Source: Agarophyton chilense
Lineage: Eukaryota; Rhodophyta; Florideophyceae; Gracilariales; Gracilariaceae
Length of the DNA stretch: 64,000 bases
Assembly: GCA_030374765.1 (NCBI GenBank)
Contig: JARGXX010000090.1
Coordinates: 62,001-126,000 of the forward strand
Direction: 5' to 3'
Positions 16,718 through 64,000 of this stretch are shown one piece after another; the stretch's first letter is position 1; every line of letters starts with the position of its first letter. A model generated the notes under the pieces. That model was given only the letters and a program-made list of their open reading frames with translations. It was not told where the DNA came from and did not search any database. Made by a program: the position numbers and the translations under genes.

Positions 16718-17008
16718 TTACCCGACTTTGGCACGATCCAGACTTGGAGGCAAGGTTACCCGAGCGCGTTGGTGATAGGATAAACCCTTACACCTCGGAA
16801 GGTGCTCAATGGGTTCCACTGTATCCTCATCAGGCGAGAATCCGTACCATCGGACTTGGTAGCGGACTTCTCCCTCGGGGGTGTAGATGTGACGCACGAT
16901 GCGATCGATAACTAATTCCTGCGGGTACACTTTTCTCTGTTCGGGATTCTCTTCCATCTTGGAACGCTCTAGTTCCCTTGAGGGTGTCAACGTAGGGTTT
17001 AGACACAC
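16718..17008 (-). CDS. Detached chromodomain ORF of element A
   Basis: The product contains a chromodomain-like block: VIDRIVRH, then YQVRWYGFSPDEDTVEP and IEHLP, with the aromatic/Trp positions typical of chromodomains that end chromovirus integrases and bind methylated histone tails. It is in the same frame as pol but about 525 bp beyond the pol stop at 17534, across several stops. An ATG at residue 18 (MEENPEQR) could start a separate product. The alternative is that the pol-chromodomain link was destroyed by mutation, or removed by splicing I cannot see. Confidence 0.7.
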   Translation of the reverse strand: MCLNPTLTPSRELERSKMEENPEQRKVYPQELVIDRIVRHIYTPEGEVRYQVRWYGFSPDEDTVEPIEHLPRCKGLSYHQRARVTLPPSLDRAKVG

Positions 17009-17533
17009 CCCGGTGGGTTCTTTTCCGTGTTACGAGCGGGTCTCAGCACTTCGTCCACACGGCGCCGAGTGGCCTGTGGGCAAAGTTGTAACTTCCGTCT
17101 ACGGAGTCAAAACGGCCCAGTTTTGGGTTCTTCTTAAAGCTGAGATCTTCCTGATAACAACGGTGTTCTTAGATTCCGTGACGGTTGAGAAACCGCGACG
17201 CGGTAGCGTCTCCAATCTCAGGGGAGTAAGACTTCAACGTCAACCCGAGCTACGGGGACGAAGGTTGCTCCCGTGCAAAGCGCCGTGTAACGGAGGCAGT
17301 TTGCGCGACGGTTGGTCGTCAGAGCCTTTTGATTGGCTCGGTGCCATTCGACGTGTGCCACACAAATGCGCGGGCGCCCCGTGTGGGTTGACCGTTCCTT
17401 GTGCGGGAAAATCTGCCTATGCGGATGTGAGGTGGCGCTTTCGACACGCGCTAGCACTCTCCTGAGCTGACCCCGACGGGTCTCACTCATTTCTTTCCCA
17501 TTCCTGAGGGTTCCAGTGTCTCCACAGAAGTTC

Positions 17534-22078: not shown

Positions 22079-22080
22079 GA
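22069..22080 (-). promoter_or_regulatory. Candidate -1 frameshift site, gag to pol, element A
   Basis: Minus-strand reading TCG AAA AAC TAA. Slipping back one base on the five A residues gives AAA CTA AAC TTG, which continues as pol. The heptamer G AAA AAC is near but not identical to the canonical X XXY YYZ. The shift lies immediately before the gag stop. Confidence 0.55.
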
Positions 22081-24098
22081 AGCGGACCCCACCGAATTCG
22101 GTGCAGCTGCCTCGAAGGGGACCGGTTGTTCCCCGATTGCGGGTACAAGTTCTGTATCCCTGTCAGCAAGGTGAGCTCTGAGTATCCTTTGTTCCTCATA
22201 GGACCTACTCGGGACTCGAGCTTTCTCCTCAGGGGTCAGAGCCTCGTACTGAGCGATAATTCGTGAACCCTCCCGCAGGGGAAATGTGCAGTCTGGTGCT
22301 TTGTGACCACGAGGGTAACACAAATAGCAAATCAGCTCTGCCGGGTTCGGTTGTGGACGTGAATCCACGCGACGTGGTGCTGTATCCTTCCATCCGGGGC
22401 GAGAGAACTGAGCAGCGGTATTCGCAAAAGGTAGCGATGCGGCTGGCACCCTCCGTCCTTGGGTATAGAGCGCAGGGTCTTCATCCGTAGTCGGAGCGGA
22501 TGTTGACGGCAACTCAGACGTACCCATAGATTCGGGGTTACTTCCCATGAAGTGAATGTTAGCATTGACCCCCACGGGGGCAGGGCCTCCTGCGAGTGAC
22601 AAAGACGAGTTACCTCCATCGGCGAGGAGTGCGCGTGTCGGCCGACTCTTTCGGTTCTGCCAGGCACGGAGAGTATCCCCCTCAGCCTGGGCGTACTGAA
22701 CCAGTTCCAAGTAGGTCAGCTTGCGCTTCTCTTCCCGATGTCGGGCAACCAATGCCCTTATCGAGGGGTCCAAACCATCCACAAACATGGTGCATCTCTC
22801 GTAGGCGGGGAATACATTCCCGCATCGGTGAAACGCTTTATTCAAACGAGTTGAATACACCGTTTCGGTTTCCATCGGCTTCTGCCGCGTATCCCTTAAT
22901 GCATGGATTGCTTCCTGAATCGCATTTCCAGTAGCGTATGACCTCAAGAGGTACTGCACCGCTTAGGGCCAGCACGTGACTCCCCCTTCCGAGGCTCGGG
23001 ATGATCCACGGACAGAGTTGAACTGGTCTTCAGCCGTCCTCTTTAAGAAATAGGGTAATGCAAGATACGCTTGCGCTTCACTCATACCGAGGATGTCAGC
23101 CTCCTGGACGAACCTCGCAAGGAAATCGAGCACCAGAATTGGGTCTGTTCCTGTGAACTCCCTCTTCTATAGGGTGATGCTCAGCCTTTTGATGTAGTCC
23201 TTGACCTTACCCGTTCCGCGGGATGTTCGATCTCCCGAAGGGTTATCCAACTGGTAATAGCGGTACGATAGCAGCTTCCGATAGAGAGAATTCGTGGGCT
23301 TCAGCTCCCTTAATCCAAGGTGTTTCCTACCCTTCTTCCCGGTACGGATTGCCCCTTGAGAGGTGTAAGTAGCCTTCGACCGAGTCGCCCGGGATGACCG
23401 GCGTCCATCTTCACTATCCAAAGATTCGGAGGACGAACTCGATGACGAGCGATTGGGATCGGAATCCGATAAATCCTCTTGGAGGTAAACCCTCCTCTTG
23501 GACTTGCGGCGGTCCCGTTTAGCGGAGCGGTGTTCTTCGTCTTCCGAAACGTCGGGTTTATACTTCGAGGCTTCTGTGTCTCCGTCGATACGGATAATGG
23601 CCTCGAGGGTGTCCAGCCGAGCTCGGAAGCGTTCCGCTTGCACGCGGTGTTCCTCCACGAGGCTCCGGTACTCCTGGATAAAGACCCCAGGGGTACCAAA
23701 GCTTTCCAAAAGGGAGTTCACATCCCTCCTCAGGGTACGAAGGTCATCGGCGACTCCCCGCACCGGGGCGTCCTCCACCTTGAGGCGGAGTGTAGTAACC
23801 TCCTGAAGGAGCTCGACGTGAGCCGCGTTGGCGATATCGATTCGAGTCTCCAGGCGCTGTAATTCAGGGTCGGCCCGACTTCGGGGTGCTGCTGAGGGGT
23901 CTCCACCACTGGAGCTGGGCCCAAAGCCACGACCTCTCGAGGACCTGAAACCACTGAGGGGGCTCTCCGAGTGTCCGGATCGATACCGGAATCGTTCCGA
24001 CCTTCGGGAATTGAGCTCCTCGACCTAAGCGGGGCCGGGGGCACTGAATCCGCTTGACGGTTCGATCCAGTCCTGGAACCACGGGTAGGCGGCGACAT
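22069..24098 (-). pseudogene. gag: gag of element A
   Basis: Structural polyprotein that forms the virus-like particle. From ATG 24098 a Ser/Pro/Arg-rich N-terminus runs in one frame and passes, by a likely one-base indel near 23,880, into the main frame. There a coiled-coil-like stretch, an acidic Ser/Arg region and the capsid (FTGTDP..VLDFLARF, then AIQEAIHALRD) follow. In-frame stops: TAG 23167-23169 and TAA 22963-22965. Near the C-terminus a canonical CCHC zinc knuckle, CYLCYPRGHKAPDC, fits C-x2-C-x4-H-x4-C. It ends GSASKN before TAA 22069-22071. Confidence 0.88.
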
Positions 24099-24305
24099 GC
24101 TGCAGACACGACACCGACGATTCGGGGTAACGATGAAATTCGATCACGAGATTCCCGGAGAACGGATGACGTAACACAAAACAAAAATAAAAACCAATTC
24201 CACCCTTTCCAAAGGGGACCACTACAACAAATCTTCACGACGGTGCTTCCTCTTCCAAGAGATATTCCAACACGTAGATGACCAACCCAAAAGTCCGAGA
24301 GCGGA

Positions 24306-24323
24306 TTCTAAGTCGGGAGACCA
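24306..24323 (-). promoter_or_regulatory. Primer binding site of element A
   Basis: TTCTAAGTCGGGAGACCA on the plus strand, two bases inside the 5' LTR. Its 3' end ACCA matches the discriminator-CCA end of a tRNA. The identical 18-mer is at 53260-53277 in element B. I could not assign the tRNA. Confidence 0.8.
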
Positions 24324-24325
24324 CT

Positions 24326-25236
24326 TGTGGAGCAAAACCCGGCGACGGGAAGTGCTCTCAAGGTGTTCGAAGCCTTGCTCAATGGGGGAGGCAGACTCAG
24401 AGACACAGCCCTCCGTTCCACCCGTACTGTGGGGTGTAACTTCCACGGGGGATTCCGGCAGTACCGACGGAGGTGAGGGGTAGAAACCGTTGGATCGGGA
24501 ATGGGTATCCCAAAGAATGGGGGAAAATCCGGCGAAGAGGAAAAACGGGGCGAGGGTCGGGCACTAACAGGCATCGGACCCGAGAACCAGAAAAGGGGCG
24601 AAACAACAAAACAAACCCAATAAAGGGGCAAAAACCTGTCCTCGAAAGGAAACACAAAAAGCACGCAACAAGTAAGCAGAACCCCCACGGGGTATCGTGC
24701 ACGCAGGTCGTCTGAGCGGTCCCAAGGGGGTGGTTGCACGGAACCCAAACGTGGGCACTCTCCAAGTGGAGTCGTGTCCCTACCCAGGCGTTGCTAACCA
24801 GAACCCGTTTCGGGTTGTAAGGCCGAAACGATGGCTACGAAGAACCTCTAAAGGTATGGAAGACCAACCTTGGTTCCCATTTTACTCTGAGCTTCGGACT
24901 GTCAGATCTTGTCTCCCTAAGTAGGGCCCACTAACTAAACTCTACAGTAGTGCACACCTGCTCAGGGCCATTCACGTGGAGATCCCACTGCCAGGGCCCA
25001 AAAGTCCAACGTTCTAACAAATATCCGAAAATCGGTGCCAAAACTAAGCCACGTGTATCACGGGGCCAATCCAACCATGGGCCATCCGAGTTTTCACTTC
25101 ATAAGCGAACTCTAACCAGAAAACAGTGCCACCTCAGCACACCTTAGAGGGGATCATAGTCATAACCCTCGGAGGGTTCAATCCTCATTCTATGAGTTGC
25201 ATCTTCAAGTATCCCCTAACTGGGCGTTGCTCTACA
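24326..25236 (-). repeat. 5' LTR of element A
   Basis: 911 bp, TGTGGAGC to CTCTACA on the plus strand. It carries a 39-bp segment absent from the 3' LTR. Transcription of gag-pol would start here and run toward lower coordinates. No convincing TATA box chosen. Confidence 0.93.
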
Positions 25237-42216: not shown

Positions 42217-42779
42217 TGTGAGATAGCGCCGAAAGGCGTGTAAGTTTCCTAGAGGCGCGATCCGTGCGGAGTCCGTAAGCGGGGCGTGCGTGTCACACGA
42301 GGCCGGTCGGGGAACGGTGACGCGTGGAGACGAGCGCCAGCACCGGGCGGTCGTAGGGAGACTAGGCGGTTGGGAACGTCAGCCGCGATCGAGGTACGCG
42401 CGAAGAGTCCGAACGGCTTGTAAACCTGTAGATATCCCGTGCGGAGTAACGCTTCAGGTCTGCTTTAGAAACGATACTTAGACTAGGACGGTGGTGCTTA
42501 CCCTTTACTGTTTGGAGGGTGGCGGGGAGCGGAGGTGCATAAGTAGTGTGCGCCTCCGAGCTGCAACCCGCATTACAGTCCGTGGTGGCGCTTGCACCAA
42601 CGTGGCGGAAATATCACGGGGTGGGGGACGCTAACTACCTACAACTATGCTACGTGTTAATCTACTGTACATGTCCGTCCGGTGTGCCATCTTCGCACAC
42701 GTGTGCGACCAGGCCACTTGCACTCAGTCCTGACCACGCCCTTCTTACCTGACAACCCGCTCGGATTCACTATACTACA
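42217..42779 (-). repeat. 3' LTR of element B
   Basis: 563 bp, TGTGAGAT to TACTACA on the plus strand, aligning without gaps to 53279-53841. It contains five CCGNNCGG palindromes (42262, 42303, 42409, 42437, 42675). Confidence 0.94.
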
Positions 42780-42791
42780 GACCCCCCTCCT
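42780..42791 (-). promoter_or_regulatory. Polypurine tract of element B
   Basis: On the minus strand AGGAGGGGGGTC abuts the TG of the 3' LTR. Confidence 0.8.
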
Positions 42792-43060
42792 AGAGCGTGC
42801 GACGTTCTCGGAGCGCCAATATCCTAGGCAGTAGCTGGTTGAGTGCGCACCGAGCGGACACGGCGTTACGTTCGCGGATCGACACGAAACGCGCTAGAAG
42901 CGACCGGTCGCGTTATACGGGCCCGTTCGGAGATACGCATTGGGCCACAGCTGCTCGGAAAGGCCTGTAATAGCGCAGCCGTCCGGGAGTAGACGTTATA
43001 TCGCAGCCGTTTGGTAGTGCCCGTCGAATCGCGCCCGCCGGCGAGCGGTCGTCGGTGGTG

Positions 43061-43070
43061 TATTTAAGCA
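43061..43070 (+). promoter_or_regulatory. TATA-like box upstream of antisense ORF of B
   Basis: TATTTAAGCA lies about 112 bp before the ATG at 43173. The spacing allows a start site about 30 bp downstream and an 80-bp leader. The ATG context AACCATGG is favourable for eukaryotic initiation. Confidence 0.4.
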
Positions 43071-43172
43071 CGTCTTTGTCCCGGGCGGAGTGACGGGTAG
43101 ACTCCAGAGAGGACCGTTGCGGCAGTTCCGAAGAGTACGGACTCAGAGGCCGCGTGTCCGTTTGGTTCAACC

Positions 43173-45659
43173 ATGGAGGACAACAGCAGCGCTGTCAACC
43201 GTGACCGGGAGGAGAACGCGGGGCGTCAGACAACTTCAGCCCTGGCAGATATACCAATACCGCGACGGGTAGCGGTAACCGCGCCCGCTGCAGCGCCCGT
43301 AGAGCCTCCGTTCGGTGCCCAAAGCCGGGGCTACGCGGTTTGGGATGCCCGCCAGGCGGGGGTTCCACCGGTGTCGTCGGGAAACCCTCCCGTGCCTTCG
43401 TTTCTCCCGTTCGGTGCCTTACAGCTGCAGATAGCAGGGCGTGTTGGCGCGGGCGTACTGATGCCTCCGTTTGAATACGGAACACCCGGAGCGGGCTTGC
43501 CCGGTGTGTTTCGAAACCCGCTACCCGGGCAGGAGCATGACCACCGCTGGCGACGACTGCAGGGCCGTAGGGGCGGGCCGACAAGGAAACAGCCCCCGTT
43601 TTCGGTCGAGACGTTGATCTCGGGAGACGAATGGAGCGAATGCTTGGACGCGCGGCGGTTCGGCGCAATACCGACGCAGCGAACGTTTTTCGAACGCACC
43701 GGCTGGAATCCGAAGCGGACGCGCCACGAGGTGTGGCGTGCGCGATGGAGGCGTCTTCCGCGAATAACCGGTCGGAAGGGGAGCGAAACGGTAGGCAGCT
43801 GTGACATGCTGTTCCTCCGTTGCCCAGAGCAGTATGACTACCAGGGTCGTATGCGCGACCTCGTTACGCAGATGCTGTCAGATGAGAGTATTCACGATCT
43901 GCACGGTAATCCGTTGGGGCTTGTGATGTTTTCCCCTCCGTACGACGGGCTCTATTTCCTAAACCGACGCCGCTGGGGCGATCATGTCGCGACCGAAGCG
44001 CGGATCCGGTCGGGCTTGGGTGGTTTCATGTACCGGTGGCATAACGTGGAGTTCTTTGACGTTCCAGTGTCCGAGCGGGAAAACTTGTACGTGAGGATTC
44101 CGGAGAATTGGCCCGACGTGGATGTGCCCCGAGATCTGTCCGTGATGACCCCGCCAGTTCTGGCCTACTATTCCGACGATGTTCTTAGTGGGACGTCGAT
44201 AGCCGAACGGATCATGCGCGTAGCATACGCAGAGTGGGCGGTATGCGCCCTCATGTCATTTCTTCAGGCCGTAACGGAGGGTGTGAGGGTCTTCACCAAA
44301 ACGGAGGATCCGCGGCTGAACCTGTACAGAGGGGATCCTGGTCCGCGCGAGCTCCCTGGGTTGGGAAGGTTACTACCGTTACCGTACGGTTTAGTCTGCT
44401 TCATCATGCAGATGGGGCTGCGAAATGTGCTCCGCGGAACGCGGTATACGCCCGAAGAAGCGAGAAGGTGGCTCTTTTTATCCGTCATGACGGACTGGAG
44501 GTCGACTCCTGGTGTCTTGTGGTTCGAACCCCGGTCGGGCGGTTTTCCAACAATGCCCATCATCCGCGTCGGTGAAAATCCCATCGTCCATCGCCTGATT
44601 CCGGAGGCGGAGAGGCCTTCATGGGAGTTCGGAGACGTCACTGATTACTTTCCGCTCGGATTCATGGACCCCCATTCGCGAAGTGGGGACGGTGACGGGC
44701 CCATTGCCGATGCGGATCTACCCCTTCCGGCGAACAAACCGTCGACCGTCCAGAGGGCCGTTACCGAAACGGGCATGCAAACGGAAAGTCCCCCGAGAAC
44801 GGTAGATGCCGGTGTGCAGGTATCCGCATCGGACGGCGGCTAGGAGCGTGACGCTTTAAGGACGCTGCAGGAAGTTTGCCGGGCGAATGACGAAGAGCCC
44901 CCCGAGTCGGTCGTCGAAGCTTTAGAAATGGCGGCTGAGGTATGGGTGCCCGGCGCGGATGCGTTCACCAGCCTGTTGAGCGGGGAGATGGTCAGTACTG
45001 TCGACTTGATGTCATATGTCAGTGCTGTCTACGTTGAGCTCCTCCAGCAGCGCATCAATGCCTTTGGAGACATGGTAACCCGAACGGGCGGCGCAACAGT
45101 GTCCCAGCTTATTGGGCGTGTGGACCGGTCGATGGGGCGTACGAACGACGCCGCCCATGAGTGGCTGCAGAGAGTCCGAGCGGCAATACAGTCCGGGTCA
45201 TTCTCCGCGGCGCCTTGGGCTTCCGGCGTCCCGGCGGCTGAGGTCGCGGCGGGCGCATCGATGCCGGACCGGGCAGGGGATGCTGAGGACTCACCGACAG
45301 TGAGGGCGGCGGCTCAGGCCGCTGCATCGCCGCGAGGGGAGGAAGAAACCGAAGGGCCGACTCCTGGCTGGGGTCCGACGGACGAGGCCTCCGTACCGAC
45401 CGGGCCTCTTTCCTCTCTGAGTCGTACCGTTCGGAGGGTCGCGCATGGTACGGCGGTTAGTGCCCTCTTTCAGCCGTCCGGACGTCGTTTGGGCTCCCCG
45501 TCGCCGGTACGAGCTCCCAGAGTTGCTGCCAGGGGTGTTTTGAGAGGCCCGCGAGGAGGCCGCCGCTGTGTACGTCGTCGCGTTAGGGACTTTGCGTCCC
45601 TTCCGGTGAGTTCCCGTATCTCGAAAACGTCTTCTCCGTCCGGAAAGCGGGGAAAGTGA
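43173..45659 (+). CDS. Antisense-strand extra ORF of element B, split by one in-frame TAG
   Basis: ATG 43173 opens 556 codons to TAG 44841-44843. The same frame is then open through a 28-codon linker (from ERDALRTLQEV) into a further 243 codons from ATG 44928, ending TGA 45657-45659. The total is 828 codons opposite in direction to gag-pol. The first part has a Pro/Arg-rich N-terminus and a folded core with VDVPRDLSVMTPP at residues 316-328 and AEWA at 353-356, matching the antisense ORF of element A. The second part is Ala/Gly-rich and ends in a strongly basic tail (RGGRRCVRRRVRDF, SGKRGK) suited to nucleic-acid binding. There is no signal peptide or membrane helix. Two products (556 and 243 aa) or one readthrough product are both possible. 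No known family recognised. Confidence 0.75.
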
Positions 45660-46405
45660 GTCAGTCCGCCTCGCGGTTGGACATGAGTAAAATGTCCTAG
45701 CATCGCCATCATGCTTCACGGCGCGGGCCACGGTGCAGCGACGCGTGCGAGATTGCGGTGCTTGCGCGCGCGTTGCCACACGCGTGCGCCAGGCGCGTGC
45801 CAGGTGCGTGCGCCACGCGCGTGCTTTACCGACCGGTGCGTTTGCAGACTTAGAGTGCACGTGCCGTTACAGCAATGCCCGGCTAGGACGGTATCCGATT
45901 CGGTATACAGTAACGCGCGTTGTGCGCCTTTGCGTCTGCTCAAAAAATCACAAGTCTTTTGGCCGTGCGGAGAGTCCAAATCGGGCCTTTTTGGAGCCTG
46001 CAGCGGCTTCGTTTCCGAGATATCGGCCAAGACATTTTTCTGCGTTTTTGATACCATACGGGGCGGTAACTTCCGCGTCGGATCTTTTGATTATCCTTGC
46101 AGGTAACCGCTCGGTTTGGCGTGGGGCGCAGTGCGTATACGCTTGTTGCGGGTATGCAAGCGGGCACCGCCGGCGCGGGCAGGCACCGAGTGCCGTGTTT
46201 TAATCGGTGTACGCGTGTTGCTTGGCTCCAGGCGGGCTGCGGTGCCGGAGTTACCGAGTATATCATGGTAGTGGCGTCGGGGGGTTGTTGGTCAATGTCC
46301 ATGTCCGGTCGCAGGGGGGTACGGTGCCGACGGATTCGCACACAATCGCCACCTTCTTCCCTTTGCCGCACGGTAGTTCAGCAAACGCTAGTGGTTACCG
46401 ATGGG

Positions 46406-46649
46406 AGGTGATTCCCAATGTTCGGCCGGAGCCCATGTCCAATTTTGGGATTCCCTCAGTGCTGACGGAGTCGCACGGAGTCACCACACACGCTGGTGAG
46501 TGCCGATCGGAGGTGAACACACGCTGGTGAGTGCCGATGGGAGGTGAATCCACGCTGGTGAGTGCCGATCGGAGGTGAGTCCACGCTGGTGAGTGCCGGT
46601 GGGAGGTGAACTGCAATGTTCGGCCGGAGGCCATGTCCGATTTTGGAAT
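46406..46649. repeat. Nested repeat: four 31-bp tandem units flanked by a duplicated 45-bp block
   Basis: Four units of ACGCTGGTGAGTGCCGATCG type, 31 bp each, run 46487-46517, 46518-46548, 46549-46579 and 46580-46610. On each side stands a copy of a block with AATGTTCGGCCGGAG and CCATGTCC (about 46,406-46,453 and 46,601-46,649). Units 1 and 3 contain CCGATCGG, while units 2 and 4 have lost it by single changes. The array lies between the convergent ends of pol and the antisense ORF. Confidence 0.85.
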
Positions 46650-46715
46650 GCCTCCTATCGTTCGGCTTGTATCCCCCCCCCTTCTAGATGCGACGGCTCC
46701 GCCCGGCGTACAGTT

Positions 46716-49700
46716 TCATGCCGTTCGGGATTTGCGCTTCCAATATCGGCTAATAAAGTGTTGCGGAAGATTCTTGGGAGGTTCCCAAGAGTCTTCCGCA
46801 GCACTGGAACCGTAATAGCGTACGCGATAAACAAGACCGTGCGGAGGGTCGTCGGCCAGCCCATGGTCGAGGATTCGCTCGACAATGCCAATGCTGTCCG
46901 GTTGGGTAGAGTTAGAGTTAGCCGAATCGGGTTGTGAAAGCTCCGCTCGCTGATTATTTCCAGCAGGGGGCGAGGTAGTGTCCGTCACGGGTTCCTCTGC
47001 GAACGGACCGTCCGGATCAAAAGTTACCGTACGGGCGCGTTCTGTTGTAACCGGGACGGGTTGTATCCGAGCGGGGGCGCGAGTGACGCGGTCAATGCTG
47101 ACGGTATCGTGTATCCCGTCAACATTGATCGTGACCGTGCTGTCCGTCGCGTAAATGACCTTGTAGTGCCCCGTGGTCTTTGGCAGAAGTTTCCGTGAGG
47201 TACGTTCCTGCTCCTCGAACACGCCACCGGTCGGAGTTGTCGTAGGACGGTCAAGGAAGACCTCCTCGTCGGCCGCAAATGTGGGGGTTGCCCGTACGGA
47301 TTTGTCGAAGTCTGCCTTGTAGCGCTGTTGCGCATTTGTGAGGCGGTTCCGAGCAGACTGGAGCGTAGCCTTGAGAAGCCTGAGTGTGTAGCGCTTCATC
47401 TGTCCCGGGGTTGGCTGCGTCGGTGCTGCTGGGTCCGTGGCGGAGCTGGGTTCGTCCAGGACGACGTTCGGGGGTACGCGGGTCAGGGCCAAATCGAAAG
47501 GCGTGGTGCCCGTGCTTCGGTGTACCTGAAGGTTGTAACCGTACGTTAGCGGCTGTACGTATGCGTGCCAGTTAGACTGGTGGTCCGCAACGTAGTGCCG
47601 TAGGCGCTGGACGAGCGTCTTATTAAACCGTTCGGCTTGTCCGTTCGCCTGAGGGTGGTACGCCGTCGTTGTGACGTGTTTCGTACCTAACGCCCTGCAA
47701 GTCTCCTCGAAGATCTTCGAGACAAACTGAGGTCCGTTGTCGGTGAGCAAATAGTTCGGAATTCCGTACGGGTAAGCCCAATTCTCTAAGAACGTCCGGG
47801 CCACCACCGGGGCGGTTGTGGACCGTAGCGGAACTGCTCTGCAGAGCTTTGTGAACCGGTCGGTGATGACGAGGATGTACTCGTGTCCAGTGACTGACTT
47901 CGGAAACGGACCGACGATGTCCATTGCCACGAACTCAAGTGGCCCCGCAGCGGGAAAGAGCTTAAGCCGCTTCTGTGAGCGGTTTTGTGTGCCGCGCATT
48001 GCGGCGCACGAGCGGCAATCCCGAGCGGTTTGATAAACTTCATTAGCCATCTGCGGCCAGTAGAAGTCCCTTCGGAGAGTGTTGTACATTGGAGTCCCGC
48101 CCGGGTGTCCTTCCAGGCGCGGATAGTGCGAAAGATAGAGGACGCGCGGAACCAGCGAGCGGGGTACCACCTTCTGTAGGGCTCCGTCCAGCGGGGAGCG
48201 ATGGATGAGAACTCCGTAACGGTTGATGTCGAAGAGGGTAATCCCATTACCAACGTCCTTCCGCACGGATTTGCAGTACTTGTCCTCCGCCTGCTCTCTG
48301 ATGAGCTCTTCCAAAGTGACCGGTCGGACGGACGTTCGTCTCCTCTTCGACGATGGCCATGACCTCGGGGCAGCCGATCGGGTTCTGTCCGTAGTGCCAG
48401 TCAAGGACAGCGTCTGTCTTGACCTCACCGTCGACGGTGATGTCCGCAACGAGGTCGTCGTTCTCTTCCGCGCGGTCCGCAAGGAGTAGGCATGGGACCT
48501 CCTCGTCCAGGGGAGTGGTGTCTTCTCCGTCCGTCTGGATTCGCGACAGCGCGTCAGCGGCCTGGTGTTTTATGCCCGGCCGGTGGACTATATCAAAGCC
48601 ATACTCCATGAGACGGAGCCGCCAACGAGCCAGCCGTCCGGAAGCGTCCGCCAGGTTGAGTATCCACCTCAATGCGTGGTGGTCCGTACGGAGGGTGAAG
48701 CAGGCGCCCTCGAGATACGGCCGAAGGTGCAGTATTGCCCACACGACAGCGAGGCATTCCCGTTCGGTTGTGGAATATGACCCCTCAGCCTTATTCAGCG
48801 AGCGGCTCCAGTATCCGATTGGGAGTAAATCACCGTCCGGTTGCTTCTGTAATAAGACGCAACCGACTTGCTTATCGCAAGCGTCGGTATCCAGGACGTA
48901 CGGCATATCTTGACGTGGGATAGCCAGAATGGGGGGACGTATTAACCGTTGGCGAAGTTCCTCGAAGGCCTCGTGCTCCGTATTGGTCAGGGTCTCGAAG
49001 TTGAACGGTTTGTTCTTTTCGAGCTTGCTGTTCAACGGGGCTGCAATTCGGGCAAAGCTTTTAACAAAACGTCGGAAGACGTTGCACAGTCCCAAGAACG
49101 AACGGAGTTCGGTTTGGTTAGTGGGGGATTTAGCCGCTCGGATAGCATCTCGGGTCCTTGCGGAGACCTGCAGCTTGCCCGGGCGGATAACGTGACCCAA
49201 ATAGTCGACAGTACCGCTGAAGAATTGACACTTATCCAAACGGAGAGTGATACCGGCCGATCGGAGTGATGAAAGAATGGTCCGAACATGGTCGAAATGC
49301 TCTGAAACCGTGTGGGAGTAGATTATAACGTCATCCAGATAGACCAACGCGTATTGCCACTTGACGCGGGACAGTATGATGTCCAAGGCCCGTTGAAATG
49401 TGGCGGGGGAGTTCTTCAAACCGAACGGCATTCGAACATACCTGTACAGTCCCATATGAGAGGTGAACGTTGTTTTATCCCGGTCGGCTTCATCCACCTC
49501 GGTCTGCCAATAGCCACTGTTCGCGTCCAGGGTGGAGAATATTTTTGCTTCTCCAAGAGAATCTATGCATTCGTCCATTCTCGGTAGTGGGTAAGTATCC
49601 CGAACGGTGACTGCGTTTAGTCGACGGTAGTCCACACAGAAGCGTAAAATTCCGTCTTTCTTTTGAGCGAACACAACCGGACTGGCCCACTCGGCCGAGG

Positions 49701-50949
49701 AAGGCTCAATTACACCGAGCTCCAACTGCTTGGTGACCTCCGTGCGTTCGAGTTCGCGACGCGCCGGACCCGCATGGTATGGCATCTGGTATATCGGCTT
49801 TGTACCAGGTTCCAGTTGGATCCTGTGCTTCGCTGCCGCGATACGGCCCAGATGGCCGTTCCACATGTCCCGAAACGGTTTGAGGAGCTCAATGACCCTT
49901 TCTCGTTCGGATTCGAATTCGGGGGACAACTGGACCTTTGCGATCCAGTCTTCTTCTGCATCAGGCGTTGGCTCTTGTCCGGTGGGCTTTGACACGTCCG
50001 AAACGGAAATAGATGCGTTGGAGGGGCCCCCCTCCTTAGTTTCGTCACTCCGAGACGGAAAGTCGGGTGTTATTAATGCGACGGGGGAGGGTAACGCCAG
50101 GCCGATAATTTTGCCTTTGTGAAGGCGAACCGAACGATCGGAAAAGTTAGCTACCTGAACGTAGAATGCCACGTCTGTTCGGATTTCCATTACCCCATTA
50201 GCCAAGAGGGTTAACTCCTCTTTATGAGCAGAGCGGTGATGTCCTTGGATAAACATGAGGCCAGCAGCCCGGGAGGTTACCAATACATGAGATTCCGACA
50301 TTGGTGGTATAGAAACCGGGCGGGCGACACGAATCTTGTTCGACGGAGGTTCCCGAACGGTAGCTTGGGCTGGTAGCATAGATTGCCCGGACGGGGTTGA
50401 GCTCTGCCCGGACGCGGATTGAATCGCCACGGGGGGCGAGTTGCGTAGTACAACAATTCGTTTCGGAGGTAGTATCGCCAAGACGTACTTGTCTATGAAA
50501 GACGTGCCGAGTATGCAGCTGGCAGCGAGATTGCTGGCTACCATAAACTGAACCCGGACGGTCAGCGCTCCAAGCTGGACAAGGAGGGGTACGACCCCCA
50601 ATATGTCCATTCGGTTGCGAGACGCATCCGTAATGTTATCCAACGACCGGGGCTGCAAGTGCCCTCGCCAGTGGGGAGGAAGGTGCCGCTCGTGAATTAA
50701 GTTCGGACCCGCGCCAGTGTCCAGTACACCTGTAAGTGGAAACATTACCGATCGGGAGAAGCCGACGGAGAAATTCACTTTATAGTGCAAACTGTTTAAC
50801 AGCATTACTGGCGCGGCCGGATCGGTTTCATCCAAAGCGTCTACAGGGCGTCGCTCCGTCAGGTCGGAGGTCGTACCCGTGTAATCCGTTTCGGTGAGGC
50901 TTTCCGGCCTAGGAGAGTCGTGCGCCTCTACACGCTCTCCTCGGCTTTT
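46716..50949 (-). pseudogene. pol: pol of element B: protease, RT, RNase H, integrase, chromodomain
   Basis: The pol frame is open from before 50,946 and reads the protease (VLDTGAGPN, DTG about residue 40 of the block starting 50835). RT follows (CVDYRRLN, STLDANSGYWQ, active site YLDD), then RNase H (DTDACDKQVGC, GYWSRSLN) and a connection region to about 48,330. There a small indel moves reading to the next frame (48482-46716). That frame holds the integrase with its zinc region (H, H, CRSC), catalytic D, D, E (VAMDIVG, TDNGPQ, QAERFN) and a C-terminal chromodomain (YRVRYYGSSAAEDSWEP). Apart from this single frameshift all key residues are present. The pol stop is at 46716. Confidence 0.92.
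46762..46800. other. Near-perfect 19-bp inverted repeat inside the chromodomain codons
   Basis: TGCGGAAGATTCTTGGGA (46762-46779) is mirrored by TCCCAAGAGTCTTCCGCA (46783-46800) around a GGT centre, with one imperfect pair. It codes for AEDSWEPPKNLPQ. It may be chance plus the coding constraint, or a structural signal near the 3' end of the pol transcript. Confidence 0.6.
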
Positions 50950-53204
50950 TCCTGTTCCATAACGGGCTGAGATGGAGGTAGCTCGCCACTCGTAGCTCGC
51001 GGGGGCTCTTTCTGTATGAGCATAACCGGCCGGGGTGAGCTAGCGCGGAATGGGGTAGCCCGTGCAGGGTTGCCCGAGCGTACGCCAGTAGAGACCCGAG
51101 CGGAGCCATTAGTACCATCACGGTTGTAGTATCCCTCTTCACGACGGAGTTAGTAGTTTCTCTCCCGTGCGGCCAGTAAGTCTTCCCGGACGCCCGGAGG
51201 TACCATTTGACAGCAGTTGGGCTCTCGCGAGAGACAGATCCGGCACGGGCGATTCACCAACCGACCGGGCGGTGCCGTACTAACCGAAGGCCTCTGGGCG
51301 GTACCTGGGGTCATAGCTTGTGCCGTGCGGTATGTGCCCGAGTTGGAAAAGGTCGACGACGACGGTGTTGTCGGGACCGACAGGGTGGAGCTTCCACGTC
51401 CAACGGCGAGAATGGCTTCGCCATCTTCCGAGTCGGTGTCAAAGGACTCCGTTGGGGTCCCCACGCTCAGGACTTTCCGTGCGGAACTCCGGGGAGTTAT
51501 CAGCTTCGTGCCGGGCGGTGTCTCGGTCCGGACGGACTGGCGTCTAGCCGAGCGGTGGGTATCCCCGTAGGACTCGGCGTATCGGGCGAGTGCGTCGTAT
51601 CCGATGTGGGGATGAGACGTGAGATGATTTCTCACCTTCGCCCGTATGGCGGGAAGCAACCCCTCTACGAAGATAGACTTCAACCTCCGGTCGGAAAAGA
51701 CATTGCCGCACCGGAGGGCCTTCGTCCACAGTTTCTGTGAGTATTCCGTTTCGGACATTCCAGAAGACTGGTGCTACAGAATAACCTCCGAGTAGGCGTC
51801 GGCAATGACTTCATCCGTGGCGTACGTAGTCAACAGAAAGTTGACGACTTCCGAGTACGTACGGAGCATTTCGCTGCGCCGCACGTCAACGGCGCCCGTT
51901 TCTCCCAAGAGGCGAAACTGGATCAACGCGTGAGCCGGTCCGGTCAGGTAGAATTGGAAGCACCAGAGTGCTGCTCCCTCGGACAGTCCGTTGTGGTTGC
52001 AGGCGGTTTTAAATCGCTGCAAGAAGTTCAGAACTGAAATAGCATCAGCTCCGGAGAAGGAATATCCCTTCATCTGGACATTCAACTTCTTTTGGTAGCG
52101 CGCGATTCCCCGCGCTACCTTCGAGTTGTACTTCCGACTACGGTCGTTGAGCGGGTACGTACGGTAGTCCACCACCTTGGTGAACAGTTCGTTCAGCGGC
52201 TTGATGCGCATGGGTGCAGATTTCTCCGAACGGGAACGATACCGGTCGGAGCGCCTTCTGCGATAAGAACGGTTTGAATCAGAGTCACTGTCAGTCCGGG
52301 AAACGGCATCCAAACTATCCGAGCGGTCAGAATCAGTGTCCGAATCGGAGGAGCGTCGTTTCTTTCTACGACGACGGCTCTTCCGCGCGCGACGGTGGCG
52401 ATCCGAATCGGAGTTGGAATCAGCCCTACCGCCCTTCTTGCGGCGGCCTCTTCCCACGTCATCAGAGGAAGAGTCGTCTGAATCTCCGTACGGATCATCT
52501 CGGCGTGAATTAACCGTACGGGCTGGGACCATGGGGGCACTCTGCTGTCCCCCTTCATGTGGTTCCAGAATCCGTTCGGGTTCGTGGTCTGGGGCTACGT
52601 CCGGGCGGCCCATTGAAAACTTTGGGAGGGGTGGCAACGTCGCCGTTGCCGTGTAAACTGCCGGTCGGTCTTCCTTATTTCCTTTTCCAAACCCGATCGG
52701 TGTCAACTGCTGCAACACCTCTTCGACGGTCTCGCGCACCATCGGGGAGATGATTTCGGAGAGCAACTCCGGTAGGCGCTCGTGCAGATAACGCTCAACC
52801 CGAACGGGAACACGAAACTCTATCTCGGTCTTGACCTTATAGTGCCAATACGGTTCAAGTTCCTTTCACAGTTCTGTAAGCGTCCACGGAGGGCTATTCG
52901 GAGGGTCCTGTCCGATCGGAGCGGGGGACTGCTGGGCAGCCCCTGCAGCGGCCGAACTCACTGGGGGGCTTTCGTACCGTGCGGATGAGGAAGCGGAGGG
53001 CCCAGGGGGCCTCGAGGGTTTTCGGACGAGAACCTCGGGGTTCCCAAGGGGGAATTCCAGGGTAGGTGCAGTGCTGCGGGTGCTGCGGCGGCCAACCGAA
53101 GCGGTACCCGAAGCAGTCTGCAGGGGTGGCTCGCCGGACGGAGCCAATTCTTTTTCGACATCAACCCGTGCGGTCGAATCTACGTTTGCGTCACGGGACT
53201 GCAT
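50928..53204 (-). pseudogene. gag: gag of element B
   Basis: From ATG 53204 one frame is coding-like over about 758 codons, cut by TGA 52866-52868, TAG 51774-51776 and TAA 51150-51152, and ends at TAG 50928-50930. There is no frameshift. The N-terminus is Pro/Ser-rich. A Ser/Asp/Arg repeat region (SDSDTDSDRSD type) precedes the capsid (FSGADAISVLNFLQRF, then MSETEYSQKLW). The nucleocapsid has CRICLSREPNCC in place of a CCHC knuckle, lacking the His. A Pro/Arg-rich tail follows the last internal stop. Confidence 0.88.
50942..50953 (-). promoter_or_regulatory. Candidate -1 frameshift site, gag to pol, element B
   Basis: Minus-strand reading CAG GAA AAA GCC, six codons before the gag stop at 50928. 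Slipping back one base in the A-run enters the pol frame, open from there. The heptamer is not canonical, so this is a candidate only. Confidence 0.4.
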
Positions 53205-53259
53205 CGCGTGACTCCTTTTCCAGATCTGATCTAACCCGTTCGGTAAACACGAATCCCAC

Positions 53260-53277
53260 TTCTAAGTCGGGAGACCA
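53260..53277 (-). promoter_or_regulatory. Primer binding site of element B
   Basis: The same 18-mer TTCTAAGTCGGGAGACCA as in element A, one base inside the 5' LTR. Confidence 0.8.
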
Positions 53278-53278
53278 A

Positions 53279-53841
53279 TGTGAGATAGCGCCGAAAGGCG
53301 TGTAAGTTTCCTAGAGGCGTGATCCGTGCGGATTCCGTAAACGGGGCGTGCGTGTCACACGAGGCCGGTCGGGGAACGGTGACGCGTGGAGACGAGCGCC
53401 AGCACCGGGCGGTCGTAGGGAGACTAGGAGGTTGGGAACGTCAGGCACGATCGAGGTACGCGCGAAGAGTCCGAACGGCTTGTAAACCTGTAGATATCCC
53501 GTGCGGAGTAACGCTTCAGGTCTGCTTCAGAAACGATACTTAGACTAGGACGGTGGTGCTTACCCTTTACTGTTTGGAGGGTGGCGGGGAGCAGAGGTGC
53601 ATAAGTAGTGTGCGCCTCCGAGCTGCAACCCGCATTACAGTCCGTGGTGGCGCCTGCACCCACGTGGCGGAAATATCACGGGGTGGGGGACGCCAACTAC
53701 CTACAACTATGCTACGTGTTAATCTACTGTACATGTCCGTCCGGTGTGCCATCTTCGCACACGTGTGCGACCAGGCCACTTGCACTCAGTCCTGACCACG
53801 CCCTTCTTACCTGACAACCCGCTCGGATTCACTATACTACA
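53279..53841 (-). repeat. 5' LTR of element B
   Basis: 563 bp, TGTGAGAT to TACTACA on the plus strand. All five CCGNNCGG sites of the other LTR are kept (53324, 53365, 53471, 53499, 53737) despite about 11 substitutions elsewhere. Confidence 0.94.
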
Positions 53842-58971: not shown

Positions 58972-59398
58972 TGTAACAAGTAGCGCCCTGGCCGCTCGCG
59001 GGCTCGCCTTACCGCGGCAACAATCCTGCAGGTGCCGATGAGGACAATGAAGTTACTTCTGCGCTGCCCCAGTGAGTCCGGTTGGTGTTCGGAGCGCTTC
59101 CGCGAACCTTTAGGTCATACCGAGGGCTGTAAAACCTCTGTTAGTTACTCGAGTAAGTTAAAAAAGTATTGCTTGCGCTTTCCCAAGGTCTTTTTTGTAT
59201 ATCAATTATGCGTGCCCCGGGACGGCGGCCTGTCTTGAGAGCGTCCCGGGTCTTCCTCAGGTGTCTCCGAAGGACTGACTTTGTTCCTTGATGCAGGAGC
59301 TACGACAAACCGTCGTGCTCCGGTGAACTGTCGTATCGGGAGGCAGTTTGGCAGACGTTTTTGGACTATTAGGGCCAATGGTTAGATTATTCGGACCA
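58972..59398 (-). repeat. Probable 3' LTR of element C
   Basis: TGTAACAAG at 58972 to GGACCA at 59398, 427 bp, positioned directly after a purine-rich tract that follows the pol stop. TG...CA ends fit. The partner LTR is outside the window, so the boundaries are inferred. Confidence 0.5.
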
Positions 59399-59409
59399 TT
59401 GGCTGCCCC

Positions 59410-62400
59410 CTACTGAAGGCCGCGCTCCGAGTGGCTGGTTCTGCGCCAGTAGCGGGCAATAAAATTAGCCGGAATGGTTTGAGGCTCTTGCCAAGTATCT
59501 CTCTCAGGTGTGTACCCGAACCAACGGACGCGATAGCGCATAGTTCCACATTCTCCAATACCGGCGGAGATGATGTGCTCAATCACATACTCCGGTTGAT
59601 TTTCATCCTCGGGAAGGAGAGTGTGGTCCAGAGGGGCGAGTCCATCGGACTCGGTCGGGAGCGATGGGTCATAGTAGTTGGAATTGACCATTGTGTCCGT
59701 GGGGCTAGTCGAGTCCTCGGGAACTGCCTTAGAAGGTGTGGAGACTAGAGTGTCTACTTGATGTCGTGGTGCTTCCGTTGGGCCAGGGGGCTGGGAAGTT
59801 CGTGGTCCGGAGGAACATGGAGCTCTTGTCACGCGGTCAATAGGCACAGTGTCCTATCGGCAGTCAATGAGTAAAGTAATGGTGTCATCATTGGCCTTAA
59901 GGACTTTGTATGGTCCCGTAGAGCGGGGTAAGAGCTTCGGCGTAGTGTCCTCGAGTTCTCCAATGTCCTTCGGTGGCCGGTCCAGGTAAACCAGATCTTC
60001 TTTCGCAAAGTTCGGTGTGTTCCAAACGGCTTTGTCGAAATTGGACTTGTAGCGCCGTTGGGCTTTGGTTAGTACAGTTCTGGTCGATTGGGGAATACTG
60101 TTAATGCGTCAGCGCGAGTAGCGCTTCGCCTGGGTAGGATTCATCGCTACGGTTACTTCCTGGGGTATGATAGACTCCTGGAGGTCAACATCTATAGGTG
60201 GCGGCGCTCTCTTTAGCGTTAAGTTGAAAGGCATTGTCCCTGTGGAAGCGTGCAACTGCGTGTTGTAGGCATAAAACAGTGGCTCAACGTATTCGGCCCA
60301 GTCCAATTGGTGCTCCGAAACGTAGTGCGCCAATTGGTCCAGAAGGGTGCGATTGAAGCGTTCGGCTTGGCCATTGGTTTATGGGTGGTACGCAGTGGTG
60401 GTCACATGTTTGATACCTAAGGTAGCACAGACATGCGAGAAGAATTTGTATACAAACTTGCTGCTGTTATCCATAAGGAGGTAGAGGGGCATGCCATATG
60501 GATATCCCGAGTGGCACAAGAAGGCTGAGGCGACATCCGTGGCCTTTGTCTTTCCTAGGTCTAGGGCTCGGGTAAGTTTGGGAAACCTATCGGTGATAAC
60601 CAAAACAAACCGTTTCCCATGGGATGACTTAGGCAAAGGCCCAATTATTTCCATCGCGACAAATTCCATTAGACCTGCGGCGGAGAAGAGCTTCAGTTTG
60701 GCCTGATGGTTGGCGAGAGACCCTGGGAGCTGTGCGCACGATGCACAATTCCGTGCGGTTTTGCATAGGTCCTGCGCCATTAGTGGCCAGTAGAAGAACT
60801 TCCTTCGGACCTGGTACATTCGTGGGCCTCCAGGATGACCAGCCAAGCCGGGGCAATGGGCGAGATATAGGAATCGCGCCGTTAGCGAAGTTTTTAATAC
60901 CCGTTGGAGGGCGCCATCTAGCGGTTAGCAGCGACATAGTAGTGCAAATTGGTCATAGTCGAATAGGCATCCTGGTGTTCTCACCAATTCGGCTGTTTCC
61001 TTGCAGTACTCGTCTTTGACCTGCACCTGTAGGAGTTTCTCAATAGCTGTAGAGAGGAGTTCTTTTTCCTCCGGGGCTATCGCGCTAACCTGAGGTGGTG
61101 CCGAACTGGGCGGTACTGTCTCCCAGTCCAAGAGGTATACTTGGTTCTCCTTTACCTCAGAATCCCCCGATTGCACCTTACGTATAAGGTCATCTGTTTC
61201 CGTATAGTTCTGTGGTCCATCGTCTGTAAAGGGGATGGAAATTAGGTCGTGCAATGGAGTGTCATCAGTTCCGTCGATAATTATTCGCGACAGGGCATCT
61301 GCTGCCTGGTGCTTGATGCCTGGCGTATAGGTTATCTTGTAGTCATATTCTGACAGCCTGAGGGGCCACCTAGCGAGGCAACTAGATACATCTGTCAATT
61401 GAGTAGCCAGCGGAGTGAGTCAAAGTCTGTCCTAATGGTAAACCTGGTTCCCTCGAGGTATGGACGGAGTGTCAATACGGAACATACGATGGTTAGACAT
61501 TCCTTTTCGGTCGTACTATAGTTACGCTCCGCGGTGCTGAGCGTTCTGCTCCAGTAGCCAATAAGTCGATAGTCCTTCGGTGACTCCTGTTCCTGTAGCA
61601 GTGCACAACCCACTTAGAAATCAGAGGCATCTTTGTCCAGGACCAAAAACGTATTGGGCTTTGGTAAGGCCAATATGGGTGAGTTCAGCAATTTGTCCTT
61701 TGGGGTCTGAAATGCTTCGTACTGGTCGTCCGTAAGGGCTTCGAACTCCGAAGGTGTTCCTTTCTTAAAGATCGCGTTGACAGGGACCGAGATCTTGGCA
61801 AACCCTTAGACGAACCGTCGGTAAACGTTGCACAAGCCCACGAAGGATCGTAGTTCCGTGTGGGTCCTAGGAGGCTTAACCTGGCGATTCGCATTCGTTG
61901 TGCGTGTAGCCACCTTTAGCTTTCCTCGGAAGACGAAGTGACCAAGAAAGTCCACTGACTCCTGGAAGAAAGCGCATTTGCGGAGTTTCAGTGTTACTCC
62001 CGCGTTCTGTAGGATTGTTAGCACCTTCTTCACGTGGGGAAAGTGTTCCTTTACGGTCCGTGAGAAGATTTTAACGTCATCCAAATAGACCAGGGCGAAC
62101 TTCCATTTGACTCTGGACAGTATAATGTCCATTACCTGTTGGAACGTGGCTGGTGCATTCTTCAAACCAAAGGGCATGCGAGTAAATCTGAACAGACCTT
62201 CATGGGTGGGAAAGGTTGTCAGCGCTCTCGCGGCTTCGGCCAAAGGGATTTGCCAATATCCCGAGTTAGCGTCCACTGTGGTAAATACGACAGCTTCGCC
62301 TAAGTAATCCAGACAGTCGTCCATGCGGGGTATCGGGTATGAGTCCCTCTCGGTTACTGCGTTCAGCTTCCTGTAGTCGACACAGAACCTGACGGAGCCA

Positions 62401-63635
62401 TCTTTCTTCGCCACACGGACAAGGGGACTTGCCCATTTGGATTGGTTTGGAGGCGCCGGCTCTATGACTTGAGCTTTGCGCATCTTTTCCATCTGGTAAG
62501 CGACAATTTCCTTACCTTTAAGGCCGATACGGTATTGGTGCAGGAAATGTGGTCTAGCATCATCCTGAAGGTCAATGCGGTGTGTAGTGGCTTGGATTGT
62601 GCCCAATCTACCTGACCACATGGCCTGGTATTCCCGGAAGAGATCAAGTACTAGGGGCCTATAGGATTCGAATTCTTCGCCTATGGCGACTGTCCCCTCG
62701 CAAGAGTCGACGTTCTCTTCGGGAGTTGTAGTTGAAAAGTTATCCATTTCGGCCTCCACAATTGCCATAGGCGCAGGTAGAGTGATGCCAATCACTGTAC
62801 GTTTAGTTAACCGCACGGGTTTATCTCTGAAGTTTCTGATTGTGACCAAGAAGGACCTGTTGGGGTGGATTTACATTACTCCATTGGCCATCAAGGTAAG
62901 GTGCTTCAGAAACGTTTTCAGGTGGTTCTGAATTGTTACGAGATCTGAAGACTGGGAATGGACCGATACAGCGATTTGGGTCATCGGAGGTATCGTTATG
63001 GCCGTTGGCAGGCGAACCTTATTGGACTTCGTGTTTTCGGAGAAAACCGCTCGTTTGCGGCTAGCTTCTGGCCCTGGGGTTGAACCAGTTATGGAGATGG
63101 AAGGTGCGCGGTAAAACGCGACTTTCCTAAGGCCTGGATAAATGGACTTAATGTATCGATCGATAAAAGAGGTCCCTAGGATTGCCTCAGCGCCCAGGTT
63201 AGGACATACAAGAAACCACGTGCGGACTTTGAAATGTTCTTCCTAAAGGTAAAGTGGTACTATCTTTTTAATGTCTATTGGTCTACGACACGCATCGGTA
63301 ATCCTTGGAATCTTCCTTTCCTGAACGAAATATTGCCAACCCAGTGGGAGCAGCCAAGGAGGGACCAAGTTGGGTCCAGCGCCTGTGTCCAATACAGCTG
63401 TGGTCACTCGAGAGTTGCTGGAACGGAGTCCTACGGCTACTCGAACTTTGTAGTTCTCTTTCCTGAGGATACAGACGGGGTCGTTACTGTGTTCCAATTG
63501 TGGTTCATCCTGAGTGGTCCACTGTGGGTGGTTTGTATTGGGAGGTGAGGAGCTCTTTTGCTCATGACCGTCCAATTGGTTGAGGCAGGGGCTTAAAGAA
63601 GGAGGATTTGCCTCGAGTCGTCCCTCTAGGAGTTT
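59410..63635 (-). pseudogene. pol: pol of element C
   Basis: Order: protease (VLDTGAGPN), RT (CVDYRKLN, TTVDANSGYWQ, YLDD), RNase H (DKDASDF, then a stop, then VGCALLQ), integrase zinc region (CASC) and core, chromodomain (YRVRWFGYTPERDTWQEP) ending at TAG 59410. The first catalytic Asp of integrase is Glu (VAMEIIG where A and B have VAID/VAMD). In-frame stops include a TAA replacing the Gln before VGCALLQ (about 61,615), TAA 61806 after YRRFV, TAA near 60,926 and TAA 60379-60381 replacing the Gln of HPQTNGQ. One frameshift lies near 61,395. Confidence 0.88.
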
Positions 63636-64000
63636 TCCGCTGGGGTTTCCGTTTCTTCCCGAGGATAGGGTTCTTCCACGGGTTCGTACGTAGGACCTAC
63701 AATGGCATGGACCTTTGGGGCTTTGATCGGAGTGTCCGGAGGCGTGACATAGCGTGAGCTTCCAGGGGTCCCTGTGGTTCGTTGCTGGGCCCTGTGAAAA
63801 ATTCTTTTGGATCTCCGCACCCGGTCATTCTCTTCCCTTAGGGCTAGGAAGGTTTTTCGTGCGTCCTCAGGCAGATACCTCGTACAGTCACAAGGGTGGG
63901 TCACTGACAGGCAGAGGAAGCAAGCGCTTGGGGAACGAACAGAAATGTCCTTGTGGGGCGGAAAGGGAGAATACTTAGGTGTGGGTGGTCCAGTGGTCAC
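63626..64000 (-). pseudogene. gag: C-terminal part of gag of element C, cut by window edge
   Basis: 124 codons ending TAG 63626-63628. It contains CFLCLSVTHPCDC, a modified zinc knuckle (His four residues after the second Cys, but Cys spacing off). A helical Arg/Glu-rich tail resembles the one after the CRIC motif of element B. The gag stop is three codons after an A-run (63633-63636), where a -1 slip (GCG GAA AAC to AAA CTC CTA) enters the pol frame. Confidence 0.75.

Follow-up and report, generated by a model that had tools for sequence, protein, structure and literature searches.

Inverted CC..GG palindromes with family-specific arm spacing in three related Ty3 retrotransposon families of the red alga Agarophyton chilense

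A stretch of 64,000 nucleotides from the red alga Agarophyton chilense (GenBank assembly GCA_030374765.1, contig JARGXX010000090.1, positions 62,001 to 126,000 of the forward strand), hereafter the window, holds three Ty3 retrotransposons, elements A, B and D, the last being a copy of a family designated C. Each of these three related families carries inverted CC..GG palindromes whose arms stand at a family-specific distance. In element B, the palindrome CCGNNCGG (CCGN2CGG) occurs 98 times; the sites are independent of protein coding, those of B are conserved between two subfamilies, and an extra open reading frame (ORF) antisense to gag-pol is under selection. We infer that the sites are bound by a protein, that the antisense ORF encodes this protein and that its action opposes silencing. 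In our estimate there is an even chance that an element-encoded DNA-binding protein of two-fold symmetry, probably the antisense ORF product, recognises its own family through the spaced palindromes.

Exact counting placed the first of the 98 sites of element B at 42262 and the last at 53819, and located eight further sites in the window outside it (12047, 12147, 19410, 26093, 35799, 54402, 60751 and 62811). A first-pass annotation of the window had described B as rich in the palindrome, which was borne out, as were its first site and all 11 of its example positions; its count of about 77 and its last site, 53737, fell short, and the four outside sites that it listed were real once 19413 was corrected to 19410. 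Its chance expectation of about six sites was too low, since simulations under an order-2 Markov model (60 runs) gave 12.9, against which the observed number has a z of 22, and base composition was ruled out as the cause by this expectation. Under the same model CCGN3CGG was also raised in B (36 vs 12.7, z = 6.8), and CCG/CGG pairs at spacings N0-1 and N4-12 were at or below expectation; in an unbiased dyad count, CCG/CGG at N2 was the top dyad of the element. The spectrum of the core CC-Nk-GG, k being the number of intervening bases, showed 172 occurrences at k=4 and 159 at k=5 vs about 80 expected for each, and CC-N2-GG and CC-N3-GG were under-represented (0.65 and 0.72 of expectation). A 2-kb profile of the window agreed with the annotation in that the signal ends at the borders of B. 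Two weaker signals were also recorded in this element, an extra palindrome CAGNNCTG (15 vs 2.6 expected) and TT-N4-AA (raised 1.77 fold).

Per kb of B there are 12 sites in the long terminal repeats (LTRs) and leader and 11 in gag; pol has 7-8, the antisense ORF 5-7 and non-coding DNA 7. Gaps between sites are near-exponential (mean 119, standard deviation 110), and for 98% of the element's length a site is at most 250 bp away. Within the pol ORFs the sites occupy all three frames, and all 16 central dinucleotides are represented. The contribution of coding was assessed with 500 shuffles in which synonymous codons were permuted while each protein and its codon set were kept. The gag-pol region of B contains 52 sites vs a mean of 10.4 in the shuffles, and the antisense ORF 15 vs 3.9; neither count was reached by any of the 500, nor was that of CCGN3CGG in B. 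These results upheld three statements of the first-pass annotation, namely that sites lie in LTRs, gag, pol, antisense ORF and non-coding DNA alike, that they fall in different frames with a free centre, and that codon usage of one gene cannot explain them. Expansion of tandem repeats was ruled out as well, only two of the 98 sites lying in such a repeat, a 31-bp unit in 4.1 copies at 46486-46611, in non-coding DNA between the antisense ORF and pol. RNA hairpins were ruled out by reasoning, as a CCGNNCGG hairpin would have a loop of 2 bases.

The signal had been regarded as special to B and as lacking in A. At the N2 spacing the latter holds, A having a single CCGN2CGG site, but CCGN3CGG, CCGN4CGG, CCGN5CGG and CCGN6CGG occur there 16, 27, 22 and 26 times, respectively, vs about five expected for each. 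The CC-Nk-GG spectrum of A reaches 194, 179 and 170 at k=6, 7 and 8 vs about 80 (2.1-2.4 fold), with lesser excesses at k=4-5 and 9-10 and depletion at k=0 and 1 (0.69 and 0.66 of expectation), and the top dyads in the unbiased count were CCTN4AGG, CCCN6GGG, CCAN4TGG and CCGN4CGG. In the third Ty3 element (58.6-64 kb), CC-N3-GG and CC-N4-GG were found 62 times each vs about 27, and CC-N5-GG 44 times. The signal is thus carried by three families, at different spacings. None of 500 codon-preserving shuffles reached the excess of CC-N5 to N10-GG in gag-pol of A or that of CC-N3 to N5-GG in pol of D; in the short antisense piece of A (293 codons) the excess is weak and was reached by 16 and 21 of the 500 at k=7 and 8. 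Coding periodicity of 3 bases was ruled out as the cause, because neighbouring spacings are raised together (N4 and N5; N6, N7 and N8; N3 and N4).

Dinucleotide orders other than the inverted one (CC..CC, GG..GG and GG..CC) did not exceed 1.41-fold enrichment in any of A, B and the third element, strong enrichment being a property of inverted CC..GG. The flanks of CC..GG are mirror-symmetric on both sides in all three families, with the signatures WCC-N3/4-GGW in C, CCG-N2(3)-CGG in B and YCC-N6/7/8-GGR in A. Half-sites that are strand-symmetric, fixed in spacing, dense and blind to gene borders would fit a protein of two-fold symmetry coating a long target. The dimeric DNA-binding protein suggested by the first-pass annotation is favoured, as a prediction, by the mirror-symmetric flanks, the codon-proof sites and the inverted order. 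Element A also contains GC-N4-GC as a weaker extra palindrome (1.72 fold).

The genome searched, of 79.8 Mb, contains many further copies, and individual CC-Nk-GG spectra were obtained for 45 of 72 loci. With the B antisense ORF as query 76 matches were found (75 of 1230 first-look candidates scored), 11 of them with 92-100% identity over most of the length; broken further pieces showed 90-94%, a sister group about 68-78% and a large group 31-40% identity. All 134 matches to the A antisense ORF (134 of 1656 candidates scored) had 92-100% identity, and element D is 78-87% identical to the family C loci at the DNA level. The maximum lies at k=4 or 5 in every one of loci L001-L012 and in the short B pieces L018, L024 and L025, and at k=4 in the eight loci of the sister group (L013-L017 and L019-L021, L020 and L021 overlapping). 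Of the ten family C loci (L027, L029 and L061-L068), L061 has its maximum at k=4 and the other nine at k=3. The peak was at k=6 in all three individually examined A loci and also in 29 A loci pooled. Pooled spectra of 10 B, 6 sister, 29 A and 10 C loci agreed with the single-locus peaks, and with few exceptions the copies examined across the genome show the spacing of their own family. In four further relatives (L023, L026, L028 and L030) the maximum is at k=4 or 5, and their antisense ORFs gave better E-values for B than for C: that of L026 is 29.5% identical to B over 220 amino acids and 32.7% identical to C over 107, and that of L030 matched B only, over 29 amino acids. Locus L022 (G000:C92:55309-58707), in which A and B pieces lie side by side, showed a mixed spacing spectrum with its peak at k=6; there, an A element is apparently inserted into a B-family copy, one junction being seen (locus 1898/1899).

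Host DNA of the window (25.2-42.2 and 53.8-58.6 kb) showed no CC..GG excess; one 2-kb bin beside A (26-28 kb) exceeded its low expectation of 3.7 by a factor of 1.9-2.3. Four 3-kb Copia stretches (L069, L070, L071 and L073; L069 and L073, with near-equal spectra, probably belong to one family) gave no clear peak when pooled, the largest z being 2.1 at k=4, although this control is weak because expected counts are low (about 21). Copia locus L072 was left out of the control, as it contains a B-like Ty3 piece; a 12-kb Copia pool that included it showed CC-N4-GG 41 times vs about 25 (z 3.1). Copia reverse transcriptase matches were also seen in one orientation as apparent head-to-tail arrays, with a period of 4,120 bases at C91:54762-63748 and C92:2819-15925, the latter close to the contig start, and of about 5,900 bases at C75:1198209-1222556.

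These data bear on the possibility that the sites are read by host factors, that is, by several dimeric transcription factors or chromatin proteins with one spacing each, toward one of which each family would have evolved for expression, insulation or tethering. Although the sites are present everywhere in B, the LTRs and leader are where they are densest, as this would lead one to expect, and the sister elements described below keep their sites despite having lost the core of the antisense ORF. However, an activator needs sites in the LTRs and not over 11.6 kb of coding DNA, the host DNA of the window is without enrichment except for the small bin beside A, and three spacing classes require at least two or three factors. 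We consider an origin of this kind unlikely.

Conservation of the sites was assessed between three B copies and six sister copies, in comparisons that overlap. CCGN2CGG sites of B were intact in the sister copies in 250 of 415 cases (0.60), and those of the sister copies in B in 250 of 339 (0.74), vs 474 of 1330 (0.36) and 474 of 1206 (0.39) for control CCG/CGG pairs at other spacings and orders; for CCGN3CGG the figures were 87 of 154 and 87 of 103. Tests of CCGN2/3CGG in six single B-sister pairs gave p = 0.0017, 0.00031, 0.0048, 0.00057, 0.068 and 0.00056, and a looser test of CC-N4/5-GG on the same pairs gave p = 0.0039 to 0.13. The intact fraction among 15 A copies was 0.91-0.92 at k=6-8 vs 0.84-0.85 at k=0-2, which says little because other spacings (k=14 and 15) reach 0.90.

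The antisense ORF, read in the direction opposite to gag-pol, is located between pol and the 3' LTR in A and B; in family C, whose LTR was not seen, it neighbours pol. It comprises 852 amino acids in one frame in six aligned B copies, 640 in many A copies and 698 in locus L068 of family C; the copies in the window are interrupted, that of B by one stop (580 and 271 amino acids) and that of A by three. The B and C ORFs have a common core of about 300 amino acids with 31% identity (hhalign E 3.8e-30, probability 99.8%), by which they are clearly homologous, and no relatives of either were found in viral contigs. In B and C the ORF is a gene under purifying selection between lineages, the ratio of nonsynonymous to synonymous substitution (dN/dS) being 0.18-0.36 between B and the sister group and 0.25-0.56 in C; between three A copies it was 0.51-0.67. 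That three related families have three spacings, and each an additional gene at the same position and at least partly of one origin, points to a family-specific, element-encoded binder.

A number of observations weigh against selection on the sites and against the antisense ORF product as their binder. Recent B copies showed no excess site conservation among themselves (0.838 vs 0.840 for the control), p was below 0.05 in only one of seven family C pairs, and conservation between B and the distant loci L023 and L028 was not significant (p 0.19 for both). Site conservation between copies, which the first-pass annotation had led one to expect, was in this way found when B was compared with its sister subfamily; recent B copies lacked it, and in C it was seen in that one pair only. 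We read this as selection acting while a lineage is active, inserted copies then decaying neutrally; the C data are compatible also with weak or no constraint. The lack of extra conservation among recent B copies and in six of the seven C pairs would likewise follow if the spacing were a mutational or compositional by-product, created without selection by biased mutation or repair in each family, and the element loci are indeed GC-rich (0.51-0.61). We nevertheless hold a by-product to be very improbable: the fixed inverted spacing exceeds both order-2 composition and the codon shuffles, the same triplets are not enriched at most other spacings, and sites are conserved between the B subfamilies.

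The other adverse observations concern the ORF. In that of B the looser CC-N4/5-GG core shows a weak excess, its observed values being reached by 72 and 21 of the 500 shuffles, and CCGN2/3CGG is strong. The A and B antisense ORFs are weakly similar (blastp E 1e-5; hhalign E 0.0025, probability 12%), the similarity between those of A and C is not significant, and the 21 pairs formed by seven recent B copies have a near-neutral median dN/dS of 0.77. The protein matched no Pfam family at E<=1, the zinc-cluster, DUF1985 / DUF287 and TRP28 (PF04195) families thus being unmatched, and no relative in the PDB (best E 0.62), and its two AlphaFold models were without confidence (predicted local distance difference test, pLDDT, 27 and 33). 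Sister copies L013-L017 and L020/L021 have lost the core of the ORF (B residues ~325-570 unmatched) and retained both sides, L019 being too broken to judge, and these copies keep dense CCGNNCGG sites, 14-26 per 3.5-4 kb. If the binder is the antisense ORF product it must therefore act in trans, and the sister subfamily possibly depends on B for the protein. Finally, motif divergence tracks pol divergence as well as it tracks antisense-ORF divergence: reverse transcriptase identity is 58.5% for B-D and 54.6% for B-A, integrase identity 53.5% and 49.6%, and a pol stretch of D is 43.1% identical to A. Because pol divergence fits equally, the link between spacing and the ORF is one of correlation only.

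Another candidate binder is a gag-pol product, Gag or the integrase with its chromodomain, which would for instance compact cDNA or steer integration toward or away from the element's own copies. Packaging or target choice would be suited by a dispersed density without positional pattern and by near-exponential gaps, and at L022 an A element did apparently enter a B-family copy. The case is nonetheless improbable in our view, since identity among A, B and D is 43-59% in the reverse transcriptase and integrase stretches, a level that may or may not allow three spacings, and packaging of genomic RNA would need no strand-symmetric palindrome.

The reading that we prefer, a binder encoded by the antisense ORF, can be extended to a spacing code in which each of several Ty3 families in one genome encodes, in antisense, a dimeric binder tuned to its own half-site spacing, and selection has turned the whole length of each family, coding parts as well, into an array of binding sites, with about one site per 120 bp in B, by which the protein would coat its kin only; to this fuller proposal we give somewhat less than an even chance. 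The dispersed inverted CC..GG palindromes of each family would be recognised along the whole length by the family's own two-fold-symmetric protein, with family identity encoded by the half-site spacing and the neighbouring base. The antisense ORF product would act on all copies of its own family, site density would count and position would not, and synonymous codons of gag and pol would have been bent to supply sites. The likeliest job of such a system would be self-recognition for chromatin control, the element's own copies being coated to counter host silencing, as VANC does for VANDAL transposons.

The genome contains four Argonaute/Piwi matches and gave no match to a C5-methyltransferase (PF00145), a negative that is suggestive, as the search matched 10 of 14 control genomes, none of them eukaryotic. 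With Argonautes present and a C5-methyltransferase undetected, the host could silence through small RNA or chromatin, and cytosine methylation is unlikely. TTTAGGG triplets occurred at three places, and a search for elicitin, which matched none of the control genomes either, gave no match; an oomycete was discarded as host. The first-pass annotation had also offered a DNA-modifying protein, in view of the CpG and CNG positions that every CCGNNCGG site does carry, but the CC..GG core is common to families without an obligatory CpG. We accordingly give almost no credence to the notion that a DNA methyltransferase targets the palindromes or that CpG/CNG methylation maintains them: the A and C classes do not require CpG, and the missing PF00145 match, within the limit just given, points the same way.

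Spacing-based specificity has a counterpart in fungal Zn2Cys6 regulators such as Leu3, which bind everted CCG-Nx-CGG sites and derive specificity from the triplet spacing, but the antisense ORF here has no zinc-cluster Pfam match. CCGNNCGG itself is reportedly printed also in two Streptomyces papers, one of them on the regulator BldM (PMC4125116). No earlier report of the present feature was found in the open-access full-text literature, as judged by titles and abstract openings.

A closer parallel is the VANC/VANDAL system. According to the available passages of PMC5735166, Arabidopsis VANC21 binds a 9-base motif that only its own family carries at high density, and it removes silencing in that family; these passages together with those of PMC10398659 describe a related VANC that acts on other families; unpublished VANC-DNA structures are mentioned in the accessible part of PMC12859917. 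As in that system, there is here an accessory protein gene under selection (the antisense ORF, with dN/dS of 0.18-0.56 between B and C lineages) and a short motif that is dense in its own family and rare in the window's host DNA and the four 3-kb Copia stretches. Motifs also differ between related families. Here B has N4/5 and C has N3/4, with homologous ORFs, and the A ORF is weakly similar, a pairing of ORF and motif that pol distance explains equally well. Unlike VANDAL, which the passages of PMC5735166 describe as DNA transposons (MULE) with motifs in non-coding tandem repeats and control by DNA methylation, the elements here are Ty3 retrotransposons with spacing-coded palindromes dispersed in coding and non-coding DNA; the repeats there are in the same orientation, whereas only two of the 98 B sites lie in a tandem repeat. 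Moreover, the antisense ORF has no Pfam relation to VANC, no C5-methyltransferase was detected in the genome, and the binder is predicted from sequence.

In plant Retand elements, a non-chromovirus lineage, antisense ORFs with a suspected DNA-binding function are typical and tandem repeats are reported, as far as the accessible passages of PMC11963269 go. The extra ORF of these Retand/Tat elements is antisense and lies between pol and the 3' LTR, as in B and A. Judged against the same passages, the present elements differ in having no match to the TRP28 domain (PF04195), in having a chromodomain, and in an element-wide palindrome where Retand has tandem repeats.

Element B is a clean insertion, with LTRs 98% identical, TG...CA ends and the target-site duplication ATATC. 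RVT_1, RT_RNaseH, rve, Integrase_H2C2 and Chromo were above the Pfam cut-off in its pol, and by its pol domains, paired LTRs and target-site duplication it is a Ty3/Gypsy chromodomain LTR retrotransposon. It shares with such elements the LTRs, the order protease, reverse transcriptase, RNase H, integrase (PR-RT-RH-IN), the chromodomain and the 5-bp target duplication; what it has in addition is the antisense ORF and the saturation with palindromes. The features of the three elements are collected in Table 1.

Table 1. Coordinates of elements A, B and D and of their parts in the window
Feature	Position	Strand	Remarks
Element A, Ty3 element	13503..25236	-	saturated with CC-N6/7/8-GG; LTRs ~13503-14380 and 24326-25236; target-site duplication GACGG
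Element A, antisense ORF region	14396..16315	+	640 amino acids open in many other copies; 3 stops here, open piece 14747-15628
Element B, Ty3 chromodomain LTR retrotransposon	42217..53841	- (gag-pol on -)	98 CCGNNCGG sites
Element B, LTR, 3' relative to gag-pol	42217..42779	.	7 CCGNNCGG sites
Element B, antisense ORF, first part	43101..44843	+	580 amino acids, ends at stop
Element B, antisense ORF, second part	44844..45659	+	271 amino acids
Element B, pol: integrase H2C2, rve core, chromodomain	46716..48569	-	upstream part of frame overlaps reverse transcriptase frame
Element B, pol: protease, reverse transcriptase, RNase H	48247..51039	-	
Element B, gag region	51150..52865	-	two frames divided by stop; assigned by position and weak match to element A
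Element B, LTR, 5' relative to gag-pol	53279..53841	.	7 CCGNNCGG sites
Element D, family C copy	59024..64000	-	broken at antisense-ORF end, cut by window edge; saturated with CC-N3/4-GG

The means by which a selfish element distinguishes its own copies from other DNA of the genome have been worked out at the molecular level in very few cases. In the present families a single number seems to encode specificity, the distance between the CC and GG half-sites, which differs among related families within one genome. As such a code can be read from the sequence alone, the co-evolution of a protein with its target would become testable across many lineages. A binding-site sequence imposed element-wide on coding DNA also matters for how codon usage, GC content and selection in transposable elements are interpreted.

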